64,000 nt of DNA from positions 1,488,001 to 1,552,000 of the forward strand of contig NZ_JAINWA010000003.1 of NCBI RefSeq assembly GCF_021021555.1, in the 5' to 3' direction. A model generated the notes under the pieces. That model did not search any database. It was given only the letters and a program-made list of their open reading frames with translations, and had not been told where the DNA came from. Origin of the DNA: Teretinema zuelzerae (GTDB lineage Bacteria > Spirochaetota > Spirochaetia > Treponematales > Treponemataceae). The translations under genes were made by a program, and so were the position numbers. Shown one piece after another: positions 10,121-61,160 of this stretch; position 1 is the stretch's first letter, and the number at the start of each line of letters is the position of its first letter.

Positions 10121-10273
10121 CTCTGTCCCCCTAATATACTCATTCTTTTACGCTATCAGCAAATACCGCGCTGCCCCGGGGAGGAAGAGTGATCGTTCCG
10201 TCCGGATTCGCCCGGGTTTCGGCGTAGGTCGCGAATACAAGAGAGTATTCCGGGCCGAACGGCAGGGACAGAG
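10121..10273. repeat. Two copies of the dispersed word G(G)GGACAGAG
   Basis: GGGGACAGAG on the minus strand at 10121-10130, in the short gap after the amylase stop, and GGGACAGAG on the plus strand at 10265-10273 inside the amylase gene. These belong to the dispersed 10-base motif described in the findings. Confidence 0.8.
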
Positions 10274-18576: not shown

Positions 18577-19050
18577 TCAGGAACCCTGCGGGAACGCTGT
18601 CCAGGAAAAAGACCCGTCGGCGCCGAAACGGACGGAAATGTCGTAGAGACCTTCGGAACCGGAGGTCCACTGTATGTTCGGACCGTCCGCGACACCGCCT
18701 TCGCCCCAGTTTTCCTGCCATACCGTGCCGCCGGATGTTTCGAATTTAAACTCATACCGGGTGAGGCCCTTCAGAAACATCGTGACGGACCACACCTCGT
18801 CGCCGTTTTCGATTTTGCCGGCCATCGCGTCCGCGCCCCAGCCGTTCATGCTGCCCCGCAGATAGAGGGTGCCGAGAGCGGGATCCGTAACGGCGGGATC
18901 CGGGTCGTCGGTTTCCGGGATGGCGTGTTCATACGAATAAAGAGGGAGGGCGCCCGCGAATTCTTGCGGGATCGCGCCGGAAACAAGGTAGACGCGGAAG
19001 GCGCAGGGGCCCAGACCGGTTACTGAAAGAACCGGGATTTGAGCGGGTTG
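18577..19050 (-). pseudogene. Out-of-frame C-terminal part of the amylase gene at 19020-20762
   Basis: In the frame one base off from the amylase stop, an open reading runs from the 19050 region to 18577. It first gives AQIPVLSVTGLGPCAFRVYLV, matching the end of the neighbouring paralogue (IAEFKNLGAQDFQLYSM). A linker ETDDPDPAVTDP follows, then about 90 residues of an E-set or starch-binding type domain (LYLRGSMNGWGADA ... WQENWGEGG). Adding one G in the GGGACAGAG run at 19051-19059 joins it to the amylase, giving exactly 729 codons including stop. No ribosome site supports independent translation. So it is the broken-off tail of that enzyme, by mutation, slippage or a sequencing error. Confidence 0.8.
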
Positions 19051-20762
19051 CTCTGTCCCGCGGAAGCAATGAAATCCACCGAAGCGGATGAAGGCCGGCC
19101 CGCCAGAGTCGCGGGCGCGAACGAAGAGGAAGTTTCCGAATCAGAGAATTGCAGACCGGGGACAGAGGAAAGGTCGAAGGAAACGCCTGAATTCCGCTGG
19201 CGGTACTGGCTGTTGAAAACGCAAACGAGGGTTTGCTGTTCGCCCGCGCCGTCAGGAGAGAGGCTGAGCGCGTAGGCGCTGACGCCGTACGGATTCGTGG
19301 ATCCTTCCGGAGCGGAGAGACGGGTATACGCGCCTCTCCGGAGGGATTCGAACCGCGAGCGGAGCCGCAACAGGGCGCGGTGCAGGGACAATACGGAATC
19401 GGGGTCGCTGCTCTGTCCCCCGGCGGAAGGCCAATCGAAGGGCTGTCTGAGGCGGATGTCCCCGTTTCCATAGGCTGCGTCGTTTTCAAGAGCCGCTTCG
19501 TTCCCATAATATACGAAGGGAACCACGGGAAGCAGCAGAGACTGGGCGGTTTTCAGGCGAAGCTCCGCATCAGTCCAGCGTGAAGCGGGGCGATCCGCGA
19601 AATTATCGTGATTGCTTAAAAAACCCGCGTAGGAAACCGGGGTTCCCGGTATCTGCGGAGCGAGATCGGGAGTTCTCCCGAGTTTTCCGGCGAATTCGAA
19701 ATCGAAGAGCATGTGAAATTCAGGGGAAGACTGAGTGCCGAAATACGAGTTCAAGGTTGCTCTGTCCCCGGTAATCCAGGCCTCTCCGACCATGAATTTC
19801 GGCGATCCCCCGCTCGTTACCCCGTAACGATCGACGACCTCCGAGCGCAACTCGCGAAACCACGCGTGGGTCGCCTCGGTATCCGCGAAATCGTCCGCTT
19901 CCTCCACAAGGTAGCGAACGGCATCGATCCTCATGCCGTCGAAGCCCTTGTTGAGCCAGTACCGGGCGACGTTTTTCATCTCTTCGCGGACTTCACGGTT
20001 GCGGTAATTAAGATCCGGCATCCCCGCCCAGAATGGGGCGTAAAAAAACTCGCCGCTGAAAAGGTTCTTGTGCCAGGTGTTCGCCGAACCCATCGGGTTC
20101 CATGAAAGAGCCGAAGCGTTCCACAGATACCAGGATTTTTTTTCCTCTGTCCCCGTTTCGGAATCCATAAACCAGGGATGAGAGGAAGACGTATGATTGG
20201 GCACAAAGTCGAAAATAACCTTCATGCCCCGCGCGTGAGCCGCCTCCAGGAGGGCTTCCACGTCCGATTCGTCGCCGAACAGGGGATTAATCGAGTAATA
20301 ATCGACCGTATCGTAGCCGTGCATGTTGTAGCCGGGAGCCTTGCCCTTTCCGGCGCAGTCGAAAATCGGGGACAGCCACAGGGCGTCGCAGCCGACCTCG
20401 TACTGTATGTAATCGAGCTTCGCCGTTATGCCGGCAATGTCGCCGCAACCGTCGCCGTCCGAATCATAGAAGGACTTCACCCAAATGTGATAGAAGGACG
20501 AATCGATGTACCAGTCGGACGACAGATTTTCAGCCTGATTCGACAGAGCATCGCTCGCCGCTTCGACGTGGCGGGGACTGGCGTATTCGGCCGATCCCGA
20601 CATTTCGAACAAGCCCGCCGCAGGCGCATCCTTCTCCCGGGCGTCGTTAAGGTTTCCGCACGACGCAAAAACGAAAACCGACAGGCAGAAGACGGGCGCC
20701 CAAAACCGGCGGCATCGAGCCTTTTTATGCGGCGACAACGATATTTCGCGTTTTTCTTCCAT
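19020..20762 (-). CDS. GH13 alpha-amylase-type lipoprotein, truncated by a frameshift
   Basis: 580 residues as read. Signal peptide with lipobox FASC (Cys35). GH13 regions: FDFVPNHTSSSHPWF, MRIDAVRYL with nucleophile Asp280, MVGEAWI with Glu327, FLSNHDN with Asp386. The barrel resembles the product of 20774-22594 over its whole length, so the two arose by tandem duplication. The reading stops early at 19020: after residue 567 the frame slips at a GGGACAGAG run, and the paralogue-like end plus a starch-binding-like domain continue in another frame to 18577. The catalytic domain is intact, so a shortened enzyme lacking its C-terminal binding module may still be made. It starts 11 bases after the upstream gene. 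Five copies of the GGGACAGAG word lie inside it. Confidence 0.88.
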   Translation of the reverse strand: MEEKREISLSPHKKARCRRFWAPVFCLSVFVFASCGNLNDAREKDAPAAGLFEMSGSAEYASPRHVEAASDALSNQAENLSSDWYIDSSFYHIWVKSFYDSDGDGCGDIAGITAKLDYIQYEVGCDALWLSPIFDCAGKGKAPGYNMHGYDTVDYYSINPLFGDESDVEALLEAAHARGMKVIFDFVPNHTSSSHPWFMDSETGTEEKKSWYLWNASALSWNPMGSANTWHKNLFSGEFFYAPFWAGMPDLNYRNREVREEMKNVARYWLNKGFDGMRIDAVRYLVEEADDFADTEATHAWFRELRSEVVDRYGVTSGGSPKFMVGEAWITGDRATLNSYFGTQSSPEFHMLFDFEFAGKLGRTPDLAPQIPGTPVSYAGFLSNHDNFADRPASRWTDAELRLKTAQSLLLPVVPFVYYGNEAALENDAAYGNGDIRLRQPFDWPSAGGQSSDPDSVLSLHRALLRLRSRFESLRRGAYTRLSAPEGSTNPYGVSAYALSLSPDGAGEQQTLVCVFNSQYRQRNSGVSFDLSSVPGLQFSDSETSSSFAPATLAGRPSSASVDFIASAGQSNPLKSRFFQ

Positions 20763-21089
20763 ATATAAACCGCCTATTCCGTTTGCATCGAGTAGAGCTG
20801 AAAGTCCTGCGCGCCGAGGTTTTTGAATTCGGCGATGGTTCCTCTCGGGGACAGAGCAGCAGCGGTTTCAGGAAACTCAGGGCTCATCGCTTTGATCGCC
20901 GCGGGAGAGAGGCCTGTTTGCGTAAAAACCGGCTCAAGATCGATTCTGACCGCGGGGATTTCCGCGAGCGAAAGGTTGACCGCGCAGATCAGAATATCCG
21001 AACCCCGCACGAGGGCCCACGCGCCCGTCTGCGGCAGCGTCTCTCCGGTTTCGGCAGACGTCACGCCCGGAAGGAGTATCCTCTGTCCC
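19051..21089. repeat. Cluster of seven copies of G(G)GGACAGAG
   Basis: Exact GGGGACAGAG at 19158-19167 (+), 19411-19420 (-), 19760-19769 (-), 20145-20154 (-) and 20847-20856 (+); GGGACAGAG at 19051-19059 (-) and 21081-21089 (-). They fall in two tandem amylase paralogues, in all three reading frames. At three of them the paralogue aligns without any gap, so the word arose by base change and not by insertion. Confidence 0.85.
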
Positions 21090-22594
21090 TTGCGGAGGGC
21101 GGGATGCGCGTTCCTGAGCGCTATGAGACGGCGGTGAAGAGCGAGCAGCGAGGCCGAATCGGCGATTTGGGCTTGCGCAGAAGACCAGTCGAAGGGAAAG
21201 CGCAGGCGGACGTCCTGGCCGCCGAGTCCCGGCTCGTCTTTCTGCCCGATTTCGTTGCCGTAATATAAAAACGGAATCCCGGGAAAAAGGAGACCCAGGG
21301 ACGAAGCGAGCCGCAGCTCCCTGTCGGTTTTGAAGATAGTTCCGGGCCGGCTCGACAGGTTATCGTGATTGCTGAGAAACACCCCGTACGACGTGCGAGC
21401 GGCGGCTTCGTCGGGAATGTCGGCGCCGTAGCGGAAGATTCCCGTATTCCTGAAACGCACGCCCATGGCGACCGCGTTGGAAAAGTCGAAATCGAAGAGG
21501 GCGTCGAATTCCGCGTCGCCGTTCGCGCCGAAATAGCGCTGAAGCCGCGACGGATTATTGTTAATCCATGCTTCGCCGATCATGAATTTCGGATGGCCCA
21601 GTTCGGCATAGCGCGAAACCACTTCTTCCTGCAGTTCCTCGAAAAAATCATGAGTCGGTTCGGTGTCGACCAAGCCGGCGAGGCTCACCCTGCCTGACTC
21701 GTCCGCTTCTTCGGCCAGATAGCGGACCGCGTCGATCCTGACGCCGTCGAAGCCCTTGTTGAGCCAGAAGCGCACCACGTTCTTCATTTCCTCGCGGACT
21801 TCCCGGTTGCGGTAGTTGAGGTCGGGCATGCCCGACCAGAAGGCGCCGTAGTACCACTCGCCGCGGTCCATGTTCCGGTGCCAGGTCGCGGAATTCCCCA
21901 TGGGAGCCCAGTTCAGCTTTTCGCGGCTCCACAGGTACCAATCCTGCTTTTCCGGATCGCGCCGGGAGGAAAGAAGAAACCACGGATGGGCGGAAGAGGT
22001 GTGGTTGGGAACGTAATCGAAAATCACCTTCATGCCCCGGGAATGAGCTTCGCGCAGAAGTTCTTCCAGATGTTCCATGTTTCCGAAATATTCGTTGACT
22101 TCGTAATAGTCGACCGTGTCGTAGCCGTGCATGTTGTATCCGGGAGCGCCGCCCTTTCCCGCGCAGTCGAATATGGGAGAAAGCCATATCGCGTCAGCCC
22201 CGACATCGTTCTTGATGTAATCGAGCTTCGCCGTGATTCCCCGGAAATCCCCTACCCCGTCGCCGTCGTAGTCGTTGAAGGACTTCACCCAGATGTGGTA
22301 GAACACCGAGTCCTCCTGCCACTTCGGCGAAAGATTCTTCGCCTGGTTTGCCAGCGAGCTCGCTCGAATTTCCGCATGGCGCGGGCTCCGGTAGTCCGGG
22401 TCGCCAGTCCACTCGAAAAGCCGGGGGTCGGCGGCTTCGCCGGACGCCGGGCGGGCAGCCGGCGAAGGCGCGGAGACGGCGGCGGTCGAAGCGGAATCGA
22501 CGGCCGGTCCGCGCGACGCGCAGGACGCGAACGCGAAGCCGAGAAACAGAACCGCGAGCGCGGACAAACGAAAACGGGAAAAGAGGGAAGACAT
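20774..22594 (-). CDS. GH13 alpha-amylase-type lipoprotein
   Basis: 606 residues from the ATG at 22594, which has AGGAG six bases upstream; the in-frame ATG at 22618 lies before that site. The signal peptide ends in lipobox FASC (Cys25). GH13 regions are FDYVPNHTSSAHPWF, VRIDAVRYL with nucleophile Asp288, MIGEAWI with Glu341 and FLSNHDN with Asp411. The NDYDGDGVGDFRG loop is a likely calcium site. A C-terminal beta domain ends LGAQDFQLYSMQTE; the extra binding module of the neighbouring paralogue is absent. The gene follows a strong terminator and leads into the frameshifted copy. It should attack alpha-1,4-glucans at the cell surface; substrate preference is not evident. Confidence 0.92.
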   Translation of the reverse strand: MSSLFSRFRLSALAVLFLGFAFASCASRGPAVDSASTAAVSAPSPAARPASGEAADPRLFEWTGDPDYRSPRHAEIRASSLANQAKNLSPKWQEDSVFYHIWVKSFNDYDGDGVGDFRGITAKLDYIKNDVGADAIWLSPIFDCAGKGGAPGYNMHGYDTVDYYEVNEYFGNMEHLEELLREAHSRGMKVIFDYVPNHTSSAHPWFLLSSRRDPEKQDWYLWSREKLNWAPMGNSATWHRNMDRGEWYYGAFWSGMPDLNYRNREVREEMKNVVRFWLNKGFDGVRIDAVRYLAEEADESGRVSLAGLVDTEPTHDFFEELQEEVVSRYAELGHPKFMIGEAWINNNPSRLQRYFGANGDAEFDALFDFDFSNAVAMGVRFRNTGIFRYGADIPDEAAARTSYGVFLSNHDNLSSRPGTIFKTDRELRLASSLGLLFPGIPFLYYGNEIGQKDEPGLGGQDVRLRFPFDWSSAQAQIADSASLLALHRRLIALRNAHPALRKGQRILLPGVTSAETGETLPQTGAWALVRGSDILICAVNLSLAEIPAVRIDLEPVFTQTGLSPAAIKAMSPEFPETAAALSPRGTIAEFKNLGAQDFQLYSMQTE

Positions 22595-22614
22595 GAAGCA
22601 ACTCCTGATTATGG

Positions 22615-22652
22615 CCAAAAAACACCGGGCTCTCCCTATGGGAGAGCCCGGT
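22615..22652 (-). terminator. Strong rho-independent terminator after the second pullulanase
   Basis: A 13-bp perfect stem (ACCGGGCTCTCCC / GGGAGAGCCCGGT, loop TAT) is followed on the minus strand by GTTTTTTGG. It lies six bases after the pullulanase stop and just upstream of the amylase start at 22594. Confidence 0.92.
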
Positions 22653-31960: not shown

Positions 31961-31970
31961 GGGGACAGAG
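31961..31970 (+). repeat. Copy of GGGGACAGAG upstream of the pseudouridine synthase
   Basis: Exact GGGGACAGAG in an intergenic setting. Its GGGACA overlaps the position expected for a -35 element 17 bases before TATAGT. Confidence 0.7.
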
Positions 31971-40466: not shown

Positions 40467-41708
40467 ATGCGCGTCGGAATCTCACCGGGGCCGCTGATTC
40501 TCTGGTCTTCGCTCTCGCTGATTCTGATCACCTTCGACGGCCTCGCCGGCTACCTGTCCGAAATTGCGGCCCTCGTCATCCCTATCGCGCTGATCTGTTC
40601 CTTCGCGCACACGTTCTATTCGATGCACGCCTGCACCTTTCATCAGCGTTTTTCTACCGACCATCCGCTGAAAGGCGAAACGGTGGAATACGAATTGACG
40701 CTGGTGAACGGAGGAATGCTGCCCCTGGGACGGGGAGACTGCTCCTTCGCCGATCCCGGCCCCCTCGGCTCTTTTTCAAAGCCGGCAGAATTTCCGGTGC
40801 GCCCGGAAGAAACACGCATATACGCCGCCGATATACGCTGCGCCTATCGGGGCACCTACAATATCGGACTCACCTCGATCGTCTTTTCGGATCTTTTCGG
40901 CATACTCAGACTCGAAGAGCCGATCGAACCGCGCGTTTTCTACGTATACCCGGAATTGCTGCGGCTCGATCCCTCAGTTGAAAAACTCGCAGCTTCGTCC
41001 GGCCGTGACCGGGCGGGAGAAACAACCGGAGAGGACGACCCGGCCATTTTTGAATATATCGCGCCCATGGAACGGGACAGACGGGGAAAACGCATCGCCT
41101 GGAAATACTGGGCATCCCGGGGATTCCCGGCGGTGATAACGCCCGGCCGTTCCGAGTCGGCGGGGATCCGCATCGTTCTGGATTTGTGGAAGAGCGCCGA
41201 GGAAGCCGATGAACGACTCCCGAGCGAAGACGCGGCCGCAAGCGCCGCGTTTTCCGTCATGCAGGAAATGTCGAAGCGAAACATTCCGGTCGAATTCTAC
41301 GCGGGAGGAGCCCCTTCGCCCGTACACGTTCTTTCCGAATCGGATTTCAGGGCCCTGTTCGATCAATCGCCCAATCTCATCTTTTCCGAAACCGAGCCTC
41401 CGGCAAAAGCCTTCGAATGGGGACAGAGCACGCTTCTCATATCCACGCGCCCGCTTACCGCCGCCGCTGACGGCCGCGCGCCGCTTTTCTCCCTTTTCGA
41501 ATGCGCCATCGCGGCGGGAAACGCTCCGCACCTCCTCCTCTGTCCCCCGCCCTGCCGAGCGGACAGCGAAAAAGAAAACCTCGACGCTCTCGAAGCCCTC
41601 GCGGAAGGGATGCGGTCAGCGCAGAGCGAAGGCAAAATACGCAGCTTATTGCGAATAGCGGATTCCCGAAAGGGGACAGAGGAGATCGCCCATGCGCTCC
41701 GCCTCTGA
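40467..41708 (+). CDS. DUF58-domain protein
   Basis: 413 residues from the ATG at 40467, five bases after the MoxR stop; earlier in-frame starts lie inside moxR. Two membrane helices fill residues 8-50 (LILWSSLSLILI, ALVIPIALICSFAH). A beta domain follows (GETVEYELTLVNGGM), then the DUF58 core with ERDRRGKRIAWKYWASRG near residue 200, and a von Willebrand A-like end. DUF58 proteins work with MoxR ATPases; the molecular job is not settled. Three copies of the GGGGACAGAG word lie in its last 300 bases. The stop overlaps the next start by 17 bases. Confidence 0.9.
   Translation: MRVGISPGPLILWSSLSLILITFDGLAGYLSEIAALVIPIALICSFAHTFYSMHACTFHQRFSTDHPLKGETVEYELTLVNGGMLPLGRGDCSFADPGPLGSFSKPAEFPVRPEETRIYAADIRCAYRGTYNIGLTSIVFSDLFGILRLEEPIEPRVFYVYPELLRLDPSVEKLAASSGRDRAGETTGEDDPAIFEYIAPMERDRRGKRIAWKYWASRGFPAVITPGRSESAGIRIVLDLWKSAEEADERLPSEDAAASAAFSVMQEMSKRNIPVEFYAGGAPSPVHVLSESDFRALFDQSPNLIFSETEPPAKAFEWGQSTLLISTRPLTAAADGRAPLFSLFECAIAAGNAPHLLLCPPPCRADSEKENLDALEALAEGMRSAQSEGKIRSLLRIADSRKGTEEIAHALRL
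41419..41682. repeat. Three copies of GGGGACAGAG within 264 bases
   Basis: Exact copies at 41419-41428 (+), 41538-41547 (-) and 41673-41682 (+), all inside the DUF58 gene. Confidence 0.85.
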
Positions 41709-45362: not shown

Positions 45363-46319
45363 ATGACCGAAACATTCGCACCGCGCGCGCGCGCCACAGC
45401 GCTCGCCCTCCTTTTCGCCCTCTTCGCAGCCTCCTGCGGCGTACGCAAAACGCCCGCCGGAACAAACGCGCAAGGCGCCTCCTCTGTCCCCGAAGCCTCG
45501 CGACTCGGATCCCCCGTGAAAATAGCGAGCCTCGCTCCCGCCTACACCAAAACCCTCGTCCGCCTCGGACTCGCGGACTCGATAATCGCGGTCGACTCCT
45601 GGTCGAAAGACATCCCCGGAGTACCCGGCGGCGCGGAGGCCTTCGACATGATGCGGCCCGACAGCGAAAAACTCGCCCTCCTCCAGCCGGACATCCTCTT
45701 TGTGTCGGAAATGACCAAGGCGGGAACGGCGGCGGATCCCTTCAGCCTGTTGGGCGCGCTCGGGATACGGGTCGTCTACCTGGAAACGCCGGCAACGCTC
45801 GCGGAAATCGCGTCTCAAATAGAAGGAATCGCGCGCGAGTGCGGCCGGGAAGAGGAAGGAAGAACGCTGATCTCGGACATGAACGGAAAAATCGCGCGCG
45901 TAGCGGAAAAGGCCCGGACCATCCCGCAAGATAAACGGAAAACGGTGTATTTCGAACTATCGCCCGCGCCGAACCTGTACAGCTTCGGTTCGGGGGTATA
46001 TCTGGACGAGCTGATAACCCTCGCCGGAGGAGCCAACATCCTCTCATCCTATAAAGGTTGGATGGCGGTTGGAGGAGAAACGGTAGCGGCCCGGAATCCC
46101 GACGTCATTTTAACGAACGTCTCTTTTCTGAGCGATCCGGCCGGCGAAATTTCCTCCCGGGCCGGATGGCGCGGAGTCCGGGCGGTACAGACCGGACAGG
46201 TCTATCAAATAAACCCGGACGCGAGCAGCCAGCCGGCCCCGGGAATAGAAGACGCGCTGGAAGAAATCGCGCGCGCGATATATCCTGAATACTTTCCAAC
46301 GGAGAGCGCAAACAAGTGA
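45363..46319 (+). CDS. Cobalamin/iron-siderophore-type ABC transporter binding lipoprotein
   Basis: 318 residues. Signal peptide with lipobox AASC (Cys25). The mature part is a class III binding protein (BtuF/FhuD fold): ASLAPAYTKTLVRLGLADSI, LALLQPDILFVSEM, PNLYSFGSGVYLDELITLAGG and ARNPDVILTNVSF. It captures a B12-, haem- or siderophore-type ligand outside the inner membrane and gives it to the FecCD-type permease encoded next. The permease GTG overlaps its stop. The gene has a strong promoter whose -10 ends six bases before the ATG. No riboswitch (for example a cobalamin box) is possible in this short space, so regulation is unlikely to use one. Confidence 0.9.
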   Translation: MTETFAPRARATALALLFALFAASCGVRKTPAGTNAQGASSVPEASRLGSPVKIASLAPAYTKTLVRLGLADSIIAVDSWSKDIPGVPGGAEAFDMMRPDSEKLALLQPDILFVSEMTKAGTAADPFSLLGALGIRVVYLETPATLAEIASQIEGIARECGREEEGRTLISDMNGKIARVAEKARTIPQDKRKTVYFELSPAPNLYSFGSGVYLDELITLAGGANILSSYKGWMAVGGETVAARNPDVILTNVSFLSDPAGEISSRAGWRGVRAVQTGQVYQINPDASSQPAPGIEDALEEIARAIYPEYFPTESANK

Positions 46320-46467
46320 AGATTCCTTTCTGGGCGATTCTGGTTCTCGGCATAGCGGGCTCCCTCGCCATGCTCTGCATAGCCGCGCTCGCGGGAACGG
46401 CAGACATAGACCCCGTTACGGGACTGCGCATCCTCGCAGGAGCTTTTTCCGCATCTCCTCTGTCCCC
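45482..46467 (-). repeat. Two copies of GGGGACAGAG in the ABC transporter genes
   Basis: Exact minus-strand copies at 45482-45491 (binding-protein gene) and 46458-46467 (permease gene). Confidence 0.8.
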
Positions 46468-48577: not shown

Positions 48578-49900
48578 ATGAATACAGATGAAATACGATC
48601 GCTGACCCGAGAAATCATGGAACGGGGGCCTGTTTCGCTCACTCTGTCCGTCCCTGCCGGCCGGACAGAGGCCCCGGACAAGATCCGCGTCCGCAAGATC
48701 GCGCTCGCCTCGGGAGAAGCGTGGCAGGTCGAAGAAATCCGCGGATCGAAGGCCTTCCACAAAAACCTGAACGAGTCGGAGCTGCAAGACTATCTCGACG
48801 CGCAAACCGGAAACTATACCCGGGGCGAATTCCTGACAGCTTCCGGACGCCTCCAGCTGCTCGTGAACCGGAAGGGCAAGGCCACCGTGATCAGGAAGAC
48901 GTCGCAGAGCGCCCCCGATGCGGCGTCCGCACCCGGCGGCGCGCAAAGCCCCGGCTCGCATTCATCAGCCTGCTGCCCGGATACAAACGCTTCCGCCGTG
49001 AGGGCGACCCAAAGCCGGTGCGCCTGCGTTCCCCCCGCTACGGCCGCTCAGCCGCATAACCGGCAAAAAAAATACATCCTCCCGGAAGGACAGCCGATTC
49101 CCTTCCTCGTCCATCTGGGAGTCATGACCGCCGACGGCAGGATAATCCGCGCGAAGTACGATAAATACCGCCAGATCAACCGTTTCCTCGAATATATAGA
49201 AGACATCCTCCCCGACGTTTGGCCGGAAAACCCGGCGGAACGCAGAGCGGAAGAACTGGTCGTCGTGGACTTCGGCTGCGGAAAATCCTACCTGACCTTT
49301 GCCGTGCAGTATTATCTTGCCGAACTGAAAAAAATCCCGGTGAGGATATACGGACTCGACCTGAAGGAAGACGTAATTACGGCCTGCAGCGCCCTCGCGC
49401 GGGACTTCGGCTGCGAAAACCTCGTCTTCTCCGTCGGCGACATCGCGAACTTCTCGGGGACAGAGGAAGCCGACCTCGTGATAACCCTCCATGCCTGCGA
49501 CACCGCCACCGATTACGCCCTCGCGAAGGCGGTTCGCTGGCAGGCTCGCGGAATTCTGTCGGTTCCCTGCTGCCAGCACGAGCTTAACGCGCAGATTTCC
49601 GGAGACCTCGACCGGAGAGAACGCTCCGTATTGCGTCCGGCGTTCCGCTTCGGCCTCGTGCGGGAACGGATGGCGGCCCTCTTCACGGACGTTCTGCGGG
49701 CGGAGCTCCTCCAATCGCGCGGATACCGGGTGCAGCTCCTGGAGTTCATCGATATGGCGCATACGCCAAAAAACATACTGATCCGCGCGGTGCGCAATCC
49801 GGACGGAACACGGCCGCCCGAAGGGCAAGAGGCCGTCCAATACGAAGCTCTCCGGGATTTCCTGGGAGCCTCCCCGACCCTCGAAAAGGAGCTCATCTGA
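48578..49900 (+). CDS. Class I SAM-dependent methyltransferase (Methyltransf_32-like)
   Basis: 440 residues. The N-terminal 110 residues are a separate alpha/beta part; residues 115-160 are a low-complexity linker with several Cys. The catalytic part has VVVDFGCGKSYLTFAVQYYL (SAM motif I), IYGLDLKEDVI, LVFSVGDIANF, DLVITLHACDTATDYAL and the family mark VPCCQHELN, as in METTL25/RRNAD1-like proteins. Substrate unknown, RNA is a reasonable guess. The start is two bases after the DRTGG stop and its stop overlaps mnmA (TGATG), suggesting a shared transcript with a tRNA modification enzyme. Confidence 0.86.
   Translation: MNTDEIRSLTREIMERGPVSLTLSVPAGRTEAPDKIRVRKIALASGEAWQVEEIRGSKAFHKNLNESELQDYLDAQTGNYTRGEFLTASGRLQLLVNRKGKATVIRKTSQSAPDAASAPGGAQSPGSHSSACCPDTNASAVRATQSRCACVPPATAAQPHNRQKKYILPEGQPIPFLVHLGVMTADGRIIRAKYDKYRQINRFLEYIEDILPDVWPENPAERRAEELVVVDFGCGKSYLTFAVQYYLAELKKIPVRIYGLDLKEDVITACSALARDFGCENLVFSVGDIANFSGTEEADLVITLHACDTATDYALAKAVRWQARGILSVPCCQHELNAQISGDLDRRERSVLRPAFRFGLVRERMAALFTDVLRAELLQSRGYRVQLLEFIDMAHTPKNILIRAVRNPDGTRPPEGQEAVQYEALRDFLGASPTLEKELI
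49456..49465 (+). repeat. Copy of GGGGACAGAG in the methyltransferase gene
   Basis: Exact plus-strand copy, read in frame as Ser-Gly-Thr-Glu-Glu. Confidence 0.75.
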
Positions 49901-52681: not shown

Positions 52682-54511
52682 AGCCTGATCGAGTCTCCCC
52701 CGCAAATCCCGGACCTCCTTCGCCAGGAGAGAGAGCCGGGTGTTGTCGCGGGCGACCGCCATCACATGCACAATCTTCGTCTTCGAGCGGTCCCATATCC
52801 GGTAAAAACTGAAATCGAGGAGACGGCTTTCATAACGGTCGTACCCGGCGGACACCTTGAAATGCGTAGCCTGCAGCGGATTCATCGCCGAAATCGATCG
52901 CTCGTGATGAGACGGATCGAACATGAGGCCGATGAACTCGTCGAATCTCCGGCTCTTGTCGGGAGCGAGCATCCGGCCGAAAAGCGCCTTCACGTCACGG
53001 CCTTCCAGGTTCCTGGAAAGGAAAATCTTCTCCGTAGCGGCCGAATAATTCGGACAAATACGAAAAGCAGGGTCGATCAAAAAAAGCCCGTCGGACACAT
53101 TGCTGAAAATTTCGCGATATTCGTCCTTCGCGATCGTGTTCAACTCCAATCCGGAGAGCACCCGGTTGTACAAGGCGGCGATCTGGCCCGCCTCCGTAAA
53201 CGGCTCCACAGGAGCCCGAAGCGATAAATCGCCTGTTCTCGACTGCTCTTCCATAACGGAAAACAGGCCGGCGAGTTCCGTAACCGCGCCGTGCTCCGCG
53301 GCGTTCAAACCTATATGCTCTTCTGCGGGAGTTACCCGAAGCTTGAAAAAAAGATTAAAAGCCCACAAAGACGCGAGGGACAGAGGAAACGCCCATAGCG
53401 CGCAGGCCGCGACTCCTATCAGCTGAACCAGCAACTGGCTGCCGAACGCCGGAGTCGTGCCGAGAGCCGCAGGATCGCCGAAAATTCCAACCGCAAGCGT
53501 TCCCCAGATGCCGGCTGCCAGATGAACGGGAATCGCTCCGACCGCGTCGTCGATTCTCAGGGCTTCCAGCAGCTTTGTCGCCGCGAGCATCACAACGCCG
53601 GCGGCAGCGCCGATTACGATCGAATCAAGGGAACTTACAGCATGGCAGCCCGCGGTTATCGCGACCAACCCGGCAAGGGCTCCGTTCATCACATAATCCA
53701 CGTCGGGAAGGCCGGTGATGGCCCAGCCGAGGAAAAGAGCCGCGACGAGGCCGGCGGCCGCGGAAAGACAAGTATGCAGAATGATGGAAGGTACCGCTCC
53801 CGTCATCGCGAGAGTGCTCCCTCCGTTGAAGCCGATCCAGCCGAACCAGAGTACGATTACGCCGGCGACTGAAAGCGGAATGTTCGAACCGGGAATCTTC
53901 GTCGCCTTGCCGTCGGCCGAATACCGGCCGGAGCGGGGTCCGAGAACGATGAGACAGGCTAAGGCGACATAGCCGCCGACCGAGTGGACGACCGTCGAGC
54001 CGGCGAAATCGACGAAACCGATCGAAGAGAGCCATCCCGCTCCGCCGCTGATAAGCTCTCCGCCGAGGCCTCCCCAGGCCCAATGGCCGAACACCGGATA
54101 GATGACGGCCGAAAGGAAAAAGGTGCTGACGATGTAGCCGGAATAGCGCATGCGTTCCGCCACCGCCCCGGAAACGATCGTCGCGGAGGTGCTGCAGAAC
54201 ATCGCCTGGAACAGAAAGAATACCGCGAGTGTTCCCGCGGAAAGGGTCGAGGCAGACGCGCTGAAATCGGGAGCGAACAGAGTGGTTCCGATAAGGCCCG
54301 ATCGCGATGTTCCGAACATCAACGCAAAGCCGAAAAGCCAAAACACCAAAAGAGACACGCCCAGATCGGTGAGATTCTTCACCGCGACATTGATGCTGTT
54401 TTTGCTCCGGGTCATTCCCGACTCAACCATGGCGAAGCCCGCCTGCATAAAAAAGACCAACGCGGCGGCGACCGTCACCCATAACCAGTTCAAAAGCGTT
54501 TGAAAATCCAT
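52658..54511 (-). CDS. amt: Ammonium transporter fused to a PAS domain
   Basis: 617 residues from the ATG at 54511 (GGAGAG four bases upstream); a longer frame to 54598 reads through the promoter region. Residues 1-410 are Amt/MEP with 11 helices: [16 protein letters not shown], the pore His in [14 protein letters not shown] and the second pore His in [16 protein letters not shown]. Residues 410-480 form a helical linker with a HAMP-like look ([19 protein letters not shown]). Residues 490-610 are a PAS domain ([19 protein letters not shown]) with a terminal coiled coil. No kinase or cyclase follows, so the fusion may sense transport state and signal by protein contact. Convergent and overlapping with the chemotaxis gene. 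Confidence 0.9.
53377..53385 (+). repeat. Copy of GGGACAGAG in the amt gene
   Basis: Nine-base form with three G residues, antisense to the gene. Confidence 0.6.
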
Positions 54512-54680: not shown

Positions 54681-55496
54681 ATGAAACTACAACCCGGCAT
54701 CATCGCAATGGACCTGGACGACACCCTTCTCCGCCACGATCTCACCATTTCAGACCGCACGGTAGCAGACCTGAAAATTGCCATGGAAAAGGGCATAACT
54801 GTCATCCTCGCGTCGGGGAGATCTCCCGGAGCAATGCGGCAATACGCGGAACGGATCGGAATCGACCGGGCGAACAGCTTCATGGTCTGCAACAACGGGG
54901 CGGAGATCATCGCATCCGATACTGAAAAAACCGTTCTCGAACACTTTCTCCCGGAAGACATCGCCATAGAAGCGTTCCGACTGGTCAAGGACGCCGGCCT
55001 TTCCTGCCATATCTACGAAGACGACATCATCCACGTTTCAAAAGAAACAGAATTCTCCGACCGCGACTGGAAGCTTTCAGGACTCAAACCCGTCGTGCCG
55101 GCCGATTACGAGGAGCTTCTCCGCAGAGGAGCCTACAAGCTCGTAATACCCGGAGACCCCGAATACATCGTCCCCGTGGAAGCCGAATTCAAGGTGATAT
55201 TCGAAAACAGGGCGACCATCTTCGTCAGCAAACCATACTTTCTGGAACTCCTTCCCCTCAACTGCGGCAAAGGCGAAGCGCTCAAACACATCGCGGAGAA
55301 CATCCTCGGCCTCGAGAGGGACAGAGTAATGGCCTTCGGCGACAGCATGAACGACGAATCCATGATCAAATACGCCGGACAGAGCGTCGCGATGTGCAAC
55401 GGAAGAAAGGAAATACTGGATCTCGCCGCATATTGCACCCGCCGATCGAACGACGACGACGGAATCGCGGACTTTCTCGAAGAATTCGTGCTCTAA
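54681..55496 (+). CDS. Cof-type HAD-superfamily phosphatase
   Basis: 271 residues. Motif I is AMDLDDTLLRHD (Asp11 nucleophile, Asp13), motif II ILASGRSP, motif III Lys in the LNCGKGEALKHI region and motif IV VMAFGDSMNDESMI. The C2-type cap domain between residues 85 and 190 marks the Cof/YidA group, which dephosphorylates sugar phosphates and similar small molecules in the cytoplasm. It stands alone, divergent from amt. TATACG lies just upstream of the ATG with no clear ribosome site, so it may be another near-leaderless gene. Confidence 0.92.
   Translation: MKLQPGIIAMDLDDTLLRHDLTISDRTVADLKIAMEKGITVILASGRSPGAMRQYAERIGIDRANSFMVCNNGAEIIASDTEKTVLEHFLPEDIAIEAFRLVKDAGLSCHIYEDDIIHVSKETEFSDRDWKLSGLKPVVPADYEELLRRGAYKLVIPGDPEYIVPVEAEFKVIFENRATIFVSKPYFLELLPLNCGKGEALKHIAENILGLERDRVMAFGDSMNDESMIKYAGQSVAMCNGRKEILDLAAYCTRRSNDDDGIADFLEEFVL
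55318..55326 (+). repeat. Copy of GGGACAGAG in the HAD gene
   Basis: Nine-base form with three G residues, sense to the gene. Confidence 0.55.
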
Positions 55497-60469: not shown

Positions 60470-61160
60470 AAACATCGAAACGGCCGCTTTCTTTTGCATC
60501 GCTCTCGCCTGCGCCGCCTTATCGGCATGCGCCCCACAGGCAACGCTTACCCTGAAACCCGAAGGCGGCGCGCGCATTGATTTTCAGATGACGATTTCCC
60601 CGAACGCGGAAAAAACCCTTGAACGGTTTACCGGAACCGGCGGGGACAGAGGAATATTCGACGTCCAAGCGATACAGACAAGCCTTGCCCTCGCCGGTTT
60701 CAAATCGGCCTCCGCGGAAATCGCGCAAAACGCATCCCTCAGCCTTTCTATTCCCGCGGAAAAGGGGCAACAATATCCGGGAGACGCGATTCTCGTCGAC
60801 CATGACAAGAAGACGGCCTCGCTTTCCCTCTCCCGAGATAACCTTTCCGCCGTTTTCGCCGTCTTTCCGCCGGAAACCCTGGATTTCCTCGAACTCCTGA
60901 TGGCGCCGGCGTTCACCGGAGAAGAGCTCGATCGCGAAGAATACGTCGACATCATCGCTTCCGCCTACGGAAAAACCGTCGCCGGCGATCTTGAAAACTC
61001 CGCACTGAGCTTCACCATCCGCGCCCCGGCCCCGATGACCGTCACCGGTTCCAGTGCCGGACTCCAATACAAAAAACTGAACTCTGCGATAGTCTGCACG
61101 ATTCCGCTCGTCGATCTGCTGGTCCTTTCCGAACCAATCACGCTCGACATGCGCTGGTAA
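60459..61160 (+). CDS. Lipoprotein of unknown function
   Basis: 233 residues. The signal peptide ends in lipobox LSAC (Cys24). The mature part alternates beta and helical stretches without a recognised domain (ARIDFQMTISPNAEKTLERF, LSLSRDNLSAVFAVFPPETLDFLELLMAPAF broken by short loops). It shares a transcript with the NlpC/P60 hydrolase (11-base overlap), so a partner role at the envelope is likely. I do not recognise a family. One GGGGACAGAG word lies at 60642-60651, in frame as Gly-Gly-Asp-Arg-Gly. Confidence 0.8.
   Translation: MIYKNIETAAFFCIALACAALSACAPQATLTLKPEGGARIDFQMTISPNAEKTLERFTGTGGDRGIFDVQAIQTSLALAGFKSASAEIAQNASLSLSIPAEKGQQYPGDAILVDHDKKTASLSLSRDNLSAVFAVFPPETLDFLELLMAPAFTGEELDREEYVDIIASAYGKTVAGDLENSALSFTIRAPAPMTVTGSSAGLQYKKLNSAIVCTIPLVDLLVLSEPITLDMRW
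60642..60651 (+). repeat. Copy of GGGGACAGAG in the lipoprotein gene
   Basis: Exact plus-strand copy, sense to the gene. Confidence 0.75.

Follow-up and report, generated by a model that had tools for sequence, protein, structure and literature searches.

The genes that surround a REP-associated tyrosine transposase (RAYT) gene of Teretinema zuelzerae carry a dense, local cloud of a short, exact word, GGGACAGAG. This local, intragenic word cloud is an unusual variant of the repeats associated with RAYTs. It probably exemplifies a broader pattern, in which some RAYTs keep a halo of exact, non-palindromic words in the codons of their neighbours (through drive, reward or writing) and so shape unrelated proteins, such as CarB and other biosynthetic enzymes, by proximity alone. 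One copy of the word marks the site of a frameshift in an amylase gene; that frameshift is a side effect of the words or an assembly error, and is minor on its own.

A broken amylase frame and the base that is missing

The amylase gene lies in the 64,000-nt stretch of T. zuelzerae DNA that was analysed (the window; Table 1). As assembled, its minus-strand ORF reaches a stop 12 codons past the word copy at the frameshift site, and an ORF scan of the window reveals a second minus-strand frame, open from 19140 to 18580; one added base fuses the two frames into 729 codons, stop included. Orthologues in four other genomes (G005, G002, G009 and G022) continue in one unbroken frame through the junction and into the same C-terminal module. 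The T. zuelzerae gene is therefore truly interrupted in this assembly. The first-pass annotation had placed the frameshift at the G-run of a copy of GGGACAGAG, and had proposed that one extra G restores a 729-codon gene. Both statements hold: the minus-strand copy has three G after a C, and the two frames join just as the four orthologues read through. It had also reported that the restored end matches the neighbouring paralogue. Here the match is genuine for the domain that precedes the module, but the module itself is absent from the paralogue.

Table 1. Coordinates in the window of the amylase genes and of the copies of GGGACAGAG.
Feature	Position	Strand	Context or basis
GH13 alpha-amylase-like ORF as assembled, 580 aa	19020–20762	-	PF00128, E 6e-68; stops before C-terminal module
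Gene remainder in other frame: end of preceding domain and starch-binding-like module	18577–19059	-	Open frame, orthologue alignment, profile matches
44-nt word-bearing expansion, frame lost inside	19033–19076	-	9–15 nt in orthologues
Paralogous amylase without C-terminal module	20774–22618	-	Adjoins amylase gene
Word copy, frameshift site, without usual purine before GGG	19051–19059	-	Amylase gene
Word copy	19159–19167	+	Amylase gene, antisense; stretch longer than in orthologues
Word copy	19411–19419	-	Amylase gene, in place
Word copy	19760–19768	-	Amylase gene, in place: TGDRATL vs NGDRPLL in orthologues
Word copy	20145–20153	-	Amylase gene, variable-length loop
Word copy	20848–20856	+	Paralogous amylase
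Word copy	21081–21089	-	Paralogous amylase
Word copy	10121–10129	-	Window word search
Word copy	10265–10273	+	Window word search
Word copy	31962–31970	+	Window word search
Word copy	41420–41428	+	Window word search
Word copy	41538–41546	-	Window word search
Word copy	41673–41681	+	Window word search
Word copy	45482–45490	-	Window word search
Word copy	46458–46466	-	Window word search
Word copy	49457–49465	+	Window word search
Word copy	53377–53385	+	Window word search
Word copy	55318–55326	+	Followed by TA, less typical
Word copy	60643–60651	+	Window word search

The description of the lost module as starch-binding-like is a reasonable assignment. A profile of five amylase tails has weak matches to the starch-binding domains of glucoamylase and CGTase (best E 0.003), and the tail of one orthologue matches AMPK1_CBM with an E of 8e-6, just under the cut-off. 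The AlphaFold model of the amylase tail is all-beta, at low confidence, and the tail alone gave no match against Pfam. In a plasmid search, the amylase region returned just distant GH13 matches.

Between two conserved anchors, the T. zuelzerae amylase gene contains 44 nt where the orthologues contain 9, 9, 12 and 15 nt. Given this expansion, homology alone locates the frame loss only within 19033–19076, and it is the word consensus that pinpoints the base. A purine precedes GGGACAGAG in all 156 copies from five clusters in four other genomes, and precedes GGG in 77 of the 81 other copies considered in T. zuelzerae; the remaining four, also without the [CG]A that normally follows the word, seem to be chance matches. 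Among the convincing words, only the one at the amylase frameshift, with CAAC after the word and C before GGG, has a pyrimidine at this position. Judged from the consensus, a single missing G would account for the broken amylase frame and the broken word alike. The earlier statement that most copies have four G fits 44 of the 81 other copies, but 30 have three and seven have five.

A RAYT gene at the centre of the word cloud

The window contains 19 copies of GGGACAGAG, against 0.48 expected. Genome-wide there are 122 copies, with 82 of them in C3:1.44–1.70 Mb and 75 within 80 kb of a RAYT gene; elsewhere the word is at background. The RAYT gene (C3:1575516–1576079, 187 aa) lies outside the window, 67 kb to the right of the amylase gene. 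It was identified by profile search (NF047646, 89.3 bits against a cut-off of 80), has a solved relative in TnpAREP 4er8 (E 3e-14), and keeps the HUH (NHFH) and catalytic tyrosine (YIEENP) motifs intact, with H59, H61 and Y119 invariant in 18 homologues. It is the single RAYT match in the T. zuelzerae genome, a low copy number that sets it apart from an amplified IS. The density of words is highest at C3:1574501, some 1 kb from the RAYT gene, and decays from 15 per 10 kb at 0–5 kb to 0.03 beyond 320 kb, reaching background from about 160 kb. Up to 10 kb from the gene there are 26 words (0.67 expected), and up to 40 kb there are 51 (2.7 expected).

The word consensus is RGGGACAGAG[C/G]A; information in the flanks ends at about 12 positions, and the consensus is not self-complementary. 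Inverted pairs of words, of the kind seen in REPIN doublets, are not in excess, and close pairs are mainly direct repeats at 18–60 bp. No word-bearing terminal inverted repeats surround the RAYT gene, where only an unrelated, imperfect 13-nt pair was found, and the words favour neither strand, whether judged against the RAYT or against genes.

Two local features of the region stand beside this general pattern. The stretch 19051–21089 has seven words in 2 kb, spread over two amylase genes 67 kb from the RAYT gene, and is a hot spot above the smooth decay. Around the RAYT gene itself, G+C drops from about 0.57 to 0.49 across a block of biosynthetic genes (C3:1560001–1585000); this block may be a horizontally acquired segment.

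Exact words in codons, here and beside other RAYTs

Across six clusters, 203 of 234 words lie inside ORFs, compared with 218 expected from coding density; 103 are in sense and 100 in antisense orientation, in all phases. In CarB, encoded 6–10 kb from the T. zuelzerae RAYT gene, there are three words, and none in the orthologues of 10 congeners, among them G004 and G006, which have their RAYTs at other places. For two of the CarB words the length is unchanged, and the third is in a longer linker. Likewise, in a gene neighbourhood common to G004 and G010, words replace codons and the flanking codons are conserved. Classical insertion of the word into genes was considered and rejected for most copies, as gene lengths are unchanged.

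The words are exact. In the core of the T. zuelzerae cluster there are 45 exact words against 0.7 expected, compared with 10 one-mismatch forms against 11.2 expected by chance, and exact words with chance-level near-matches recur in five other clusters (six in all). They are also kept: between G047 and G055, which are 77–81% identical in the compared regions, 62 of 75 words (counted from both sides) are conserved, against about 22% of composition-matched controls, and the words are therefore maintained. Words that are not shared differ from the partner sequence by more bases than controls do, with a mean of 4.4 versus 2.8 between G004 and G010 (P 0.003) and 2.9 versus 2.1 between G047 and G055 (P 0.08). 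These larger differences fit multi-base writing and repeated selected substitutions equally.

The link between word and RAYT extends to other genomes. In a survey of 59 genomes of the order, all 13 genomes with at least five copies of the 11-mer GGGACAGAGCA have a RAYT, compared with seven of the 46 others (Fisher P 2e-8, for genomes that, being related, are not fully independent). The word clusters lie on RAYT contigs and in unrelated gene neighbourhoods, and congeners without a RAYT are without the words. Other RAYTs are accompanied by other words: GGGACAGAC, GGGACGGAG, GGGGACGGT, AGTGTCCC, CCTGGTAC and CCTGGCAC. One genome (G058) has four RAYTs and four different words, in a nearly block-diagonal table, and another (G043) has two words. 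The closest RAYTs among the named genomes scanned are from Treponema and other Spirochaetes. Local words near RAYTs also exist in several other phyla, mostly outside ORFs, and the words of G018, G040 and G058d are mostly outside ORFs too. Five RAYT loci in the order (L088, L094, L095, L100 and L103) have hardly any such words in 20 kb, or none.

Two genomes depart from the one-gene, one-word arrangement in other ways. At L083 (G038, C1:48001–68000), a second word, AGTTCCTC, occurs in 20 copies in 20 kb, beside GGGACAGA around the RAYT. The Treponema MAG G056 has 28 RAYT matches, an amplified family with weak local words only; elsewhere RAYTs are low-copy.

Known relatives, and how the words may arise and persist

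RAYTs are seen as single-copy genes that are maintained vertically (PMC8049555). They have been described with GTAG-tagged REPs on their flanks, and their relatives the TIRYTs with GGGGWSAS terminal repeats (PMC3733652, PMC6006769). REPs are GTAG-tagged palindromes of 20–40 nt, scattered over the genome and mostly outside genes (PMC3733652, PMC3116915), and REPINs are extragenic doublets (PMC3116915). The T. zuelzerae system shares with the RAYT/TnpAREP and REP/REPIN systems of E. coli and Pseudomonas the HUH-tyrosine protein family and the single-copy gene, and, as in those systems, each RAYT is tied to its own repeat family (PMC6006769). The repeat itself is different: it is a non-palindromic, exact word of 9–11 nt in coding sequence, confined to roughly 100–160 kb around the RAYT rather than dispersed over the genome. 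There is no GTAG- or CGTC-tagged palindrome, and the copies are neither mostly extragenic nor genome-dispersed. REPs within genes have been reported as insertions (PMC3733652). REP variants with one substitution are, in P. fluorescens, far commoner than expected by chance (PMC3116915), whereas one-mismatch forms of the word are at chance. The likeness to TIRYTs and TIRtrons is that GGGGACAG fits GGGGWSAS, and that the transposase is a RAYT relative with a repeat linked to its gene (PMC3733652). TIRYT subclass 2.1 proteins are described as long, with a C-terminal HTH extension (PMC6006769); the RAYT here has 187 aa and a short tail, and may differ from them in this. Its gene lacks word-bearing terminal inverted repeats, and the words occupy in-place positions within ORFs across about 100 kb.

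DNA uptake sequences, as found in Neisseria and the Pasteurellaceae, are short words on both strands, many of them coding and apparently kept against point mutation. The word resembles them in each of these respects, but it is local rather than enriched genome-wide, is tied to a linked gene, and has no excess of near-matches. Literature searches for the word itself returned unrelated sequence matches only. In literature that included few subscription papers, nothing was found that describes a coding word of RAYTs which is local, exact and in place, and an earlier description is possible. RAYTs, whose benefit is unclear, have persisted in bacteria over very long periods, and work on REPs has mostly treated them as extragenic elements. 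An exact coding word that is linked to a RAYT and decays with distance offers a direct handle on RAYT action, as it predicts the RAYT's target, its range, and the release of words once the RAYT is lost. By the same token, an unusual residue or an occasional frameshift in a gene close to a RAYT may reflect pressure at the DNA level rather than protein function.

We lean towards an explanation in which the word is the RAYT's putative recognition word, linked exact copies are favoured, and the amylase word was spoiled by the loss of a G, with no programmed switch involved. The RAYT would recognise RGGGACAGAG[C/G]A and act mainly close to where it is encoded; linked words that are exact would be favoured, and mutated ones lost, either via host selection or via a drive that helps the linked RAYT to persist. 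New words would arise mainly by substitution, where the protein tolerates it, and occasionally in small linker expansions. The amylase gene would have gained several words, the last of them in a linker expansion, and this last word would then have lost one G of its RGGG run—spoiling the word and cutting off the starch-binding-like module—either in a recent mutation or through a base dropped in assembly.

Two other accounts of the words were weighed. The RAYT could write them directly, moving a short, word-bearing single strand into nearby lagging-strand gaps and overwriting about ten bases in a single event; its reach would not extend beyond the neighbourhood of its gene. We think this rather unlikely, yet it is a serious rival to the preferred account. 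Direct writing would suit the exactness of the words and their chance-level near-matches, replacement without change of length, the decay with distance, and the excess of base differences in non-shared words; yet several non-shared words differ by just one or two bases between conserved flanks, the long-term conservation between G047 and G055 requires extra maintenance, and no HUH enzyme is reported to act in this way in the literature searched. The other account, in which the word is a host site for chromosome organisation, replication or regulation and the domain merely includes the RAYT gene, is very improbable. It draws on a clustered DNA-level signal that is present on both strands and conserved between species, and on the G+C drop in the core, but clusters follow RAYT genes into unrelated neighbourhoods, different RAYTs of one genome have different words, congeners without a RAYT have none, and neither a GC-skew switch nor a dif-like site was found at the density peak. 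Organisation of the replication-terminus or KOPS/matS kind was rejected specifically, there being no skew switch, no change of orientation and no dif-like site.

Within the preferred reading, in which one lost G breaks both the word and the amylase frame, the loss may itself be an artefact. That four G are present in the chromosome and the 728-residue enzyme is intact, so that the word cloud is real and the frameshift is not, is a serious possibility, though short of probable: one G restores both the frame and the word's otherwise invariant purine, the module is intact and the orthologues are continuous, and the three large contigs may be long-read assemblies, in which short G-runs could be under-called. 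Against this, the ORF list of the window consists mostly of long, tiled genes, which implies that indel errors are not common. The first-pass annotation had proposed, as the alternative to a base lost in assembly, a slippage switch between forms of the amylase with and without the module. To such a switch, in which the word's G-run would gain and lose a G at a high rate, we give hardly any credence. The base was indeed lost at the word itself, and beyond it the frame stays open over some 155 codons of gene-like GC3, which argues that the change is recent or reversible. As in phase-variable contingency loci, a one-base change in G-run length breaks the frame. However, a run of three or four G is short for a contingency tract, even the range of three to five G among the copies is short, and the three G here do not make a hypermutable tract. 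Moreover, 51 of the 81 other copies have four or five G, mostly in intact ORFs, and 71 of the 78 main-region copies are contained in ORFs of 80 codons or more, with no sign that other copies break genes; and the words are accounted for by the RAYT.

Two sets of copies show further structure. The amylase copy at 19051 and the CarB linker copy (C3:1583794), both in linker expansions, have CTTCCGC before and AAATCCC after the word in common, and both encode SAGTEQ...IP, provided that the amylase frame is mended. This pair is the best of all copies, with a score of 25 against a control maximum of 24, and is not clearly beyond controls; copying of longer segments between words was rejected, as flank similarity is no better than in shifted controls. 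Far from any RAYT, locus L014 (C1:1138751–1138864) contains six tandem words at a spacing of 20–21 bp, followed downstream by a promoter-like sequence and a very small ORF, with a further copy at C1:1139396 in the next, rsgA-like gene. The tandem words may be what is left of a former RAYT position, or may form a binding array of independent origin.
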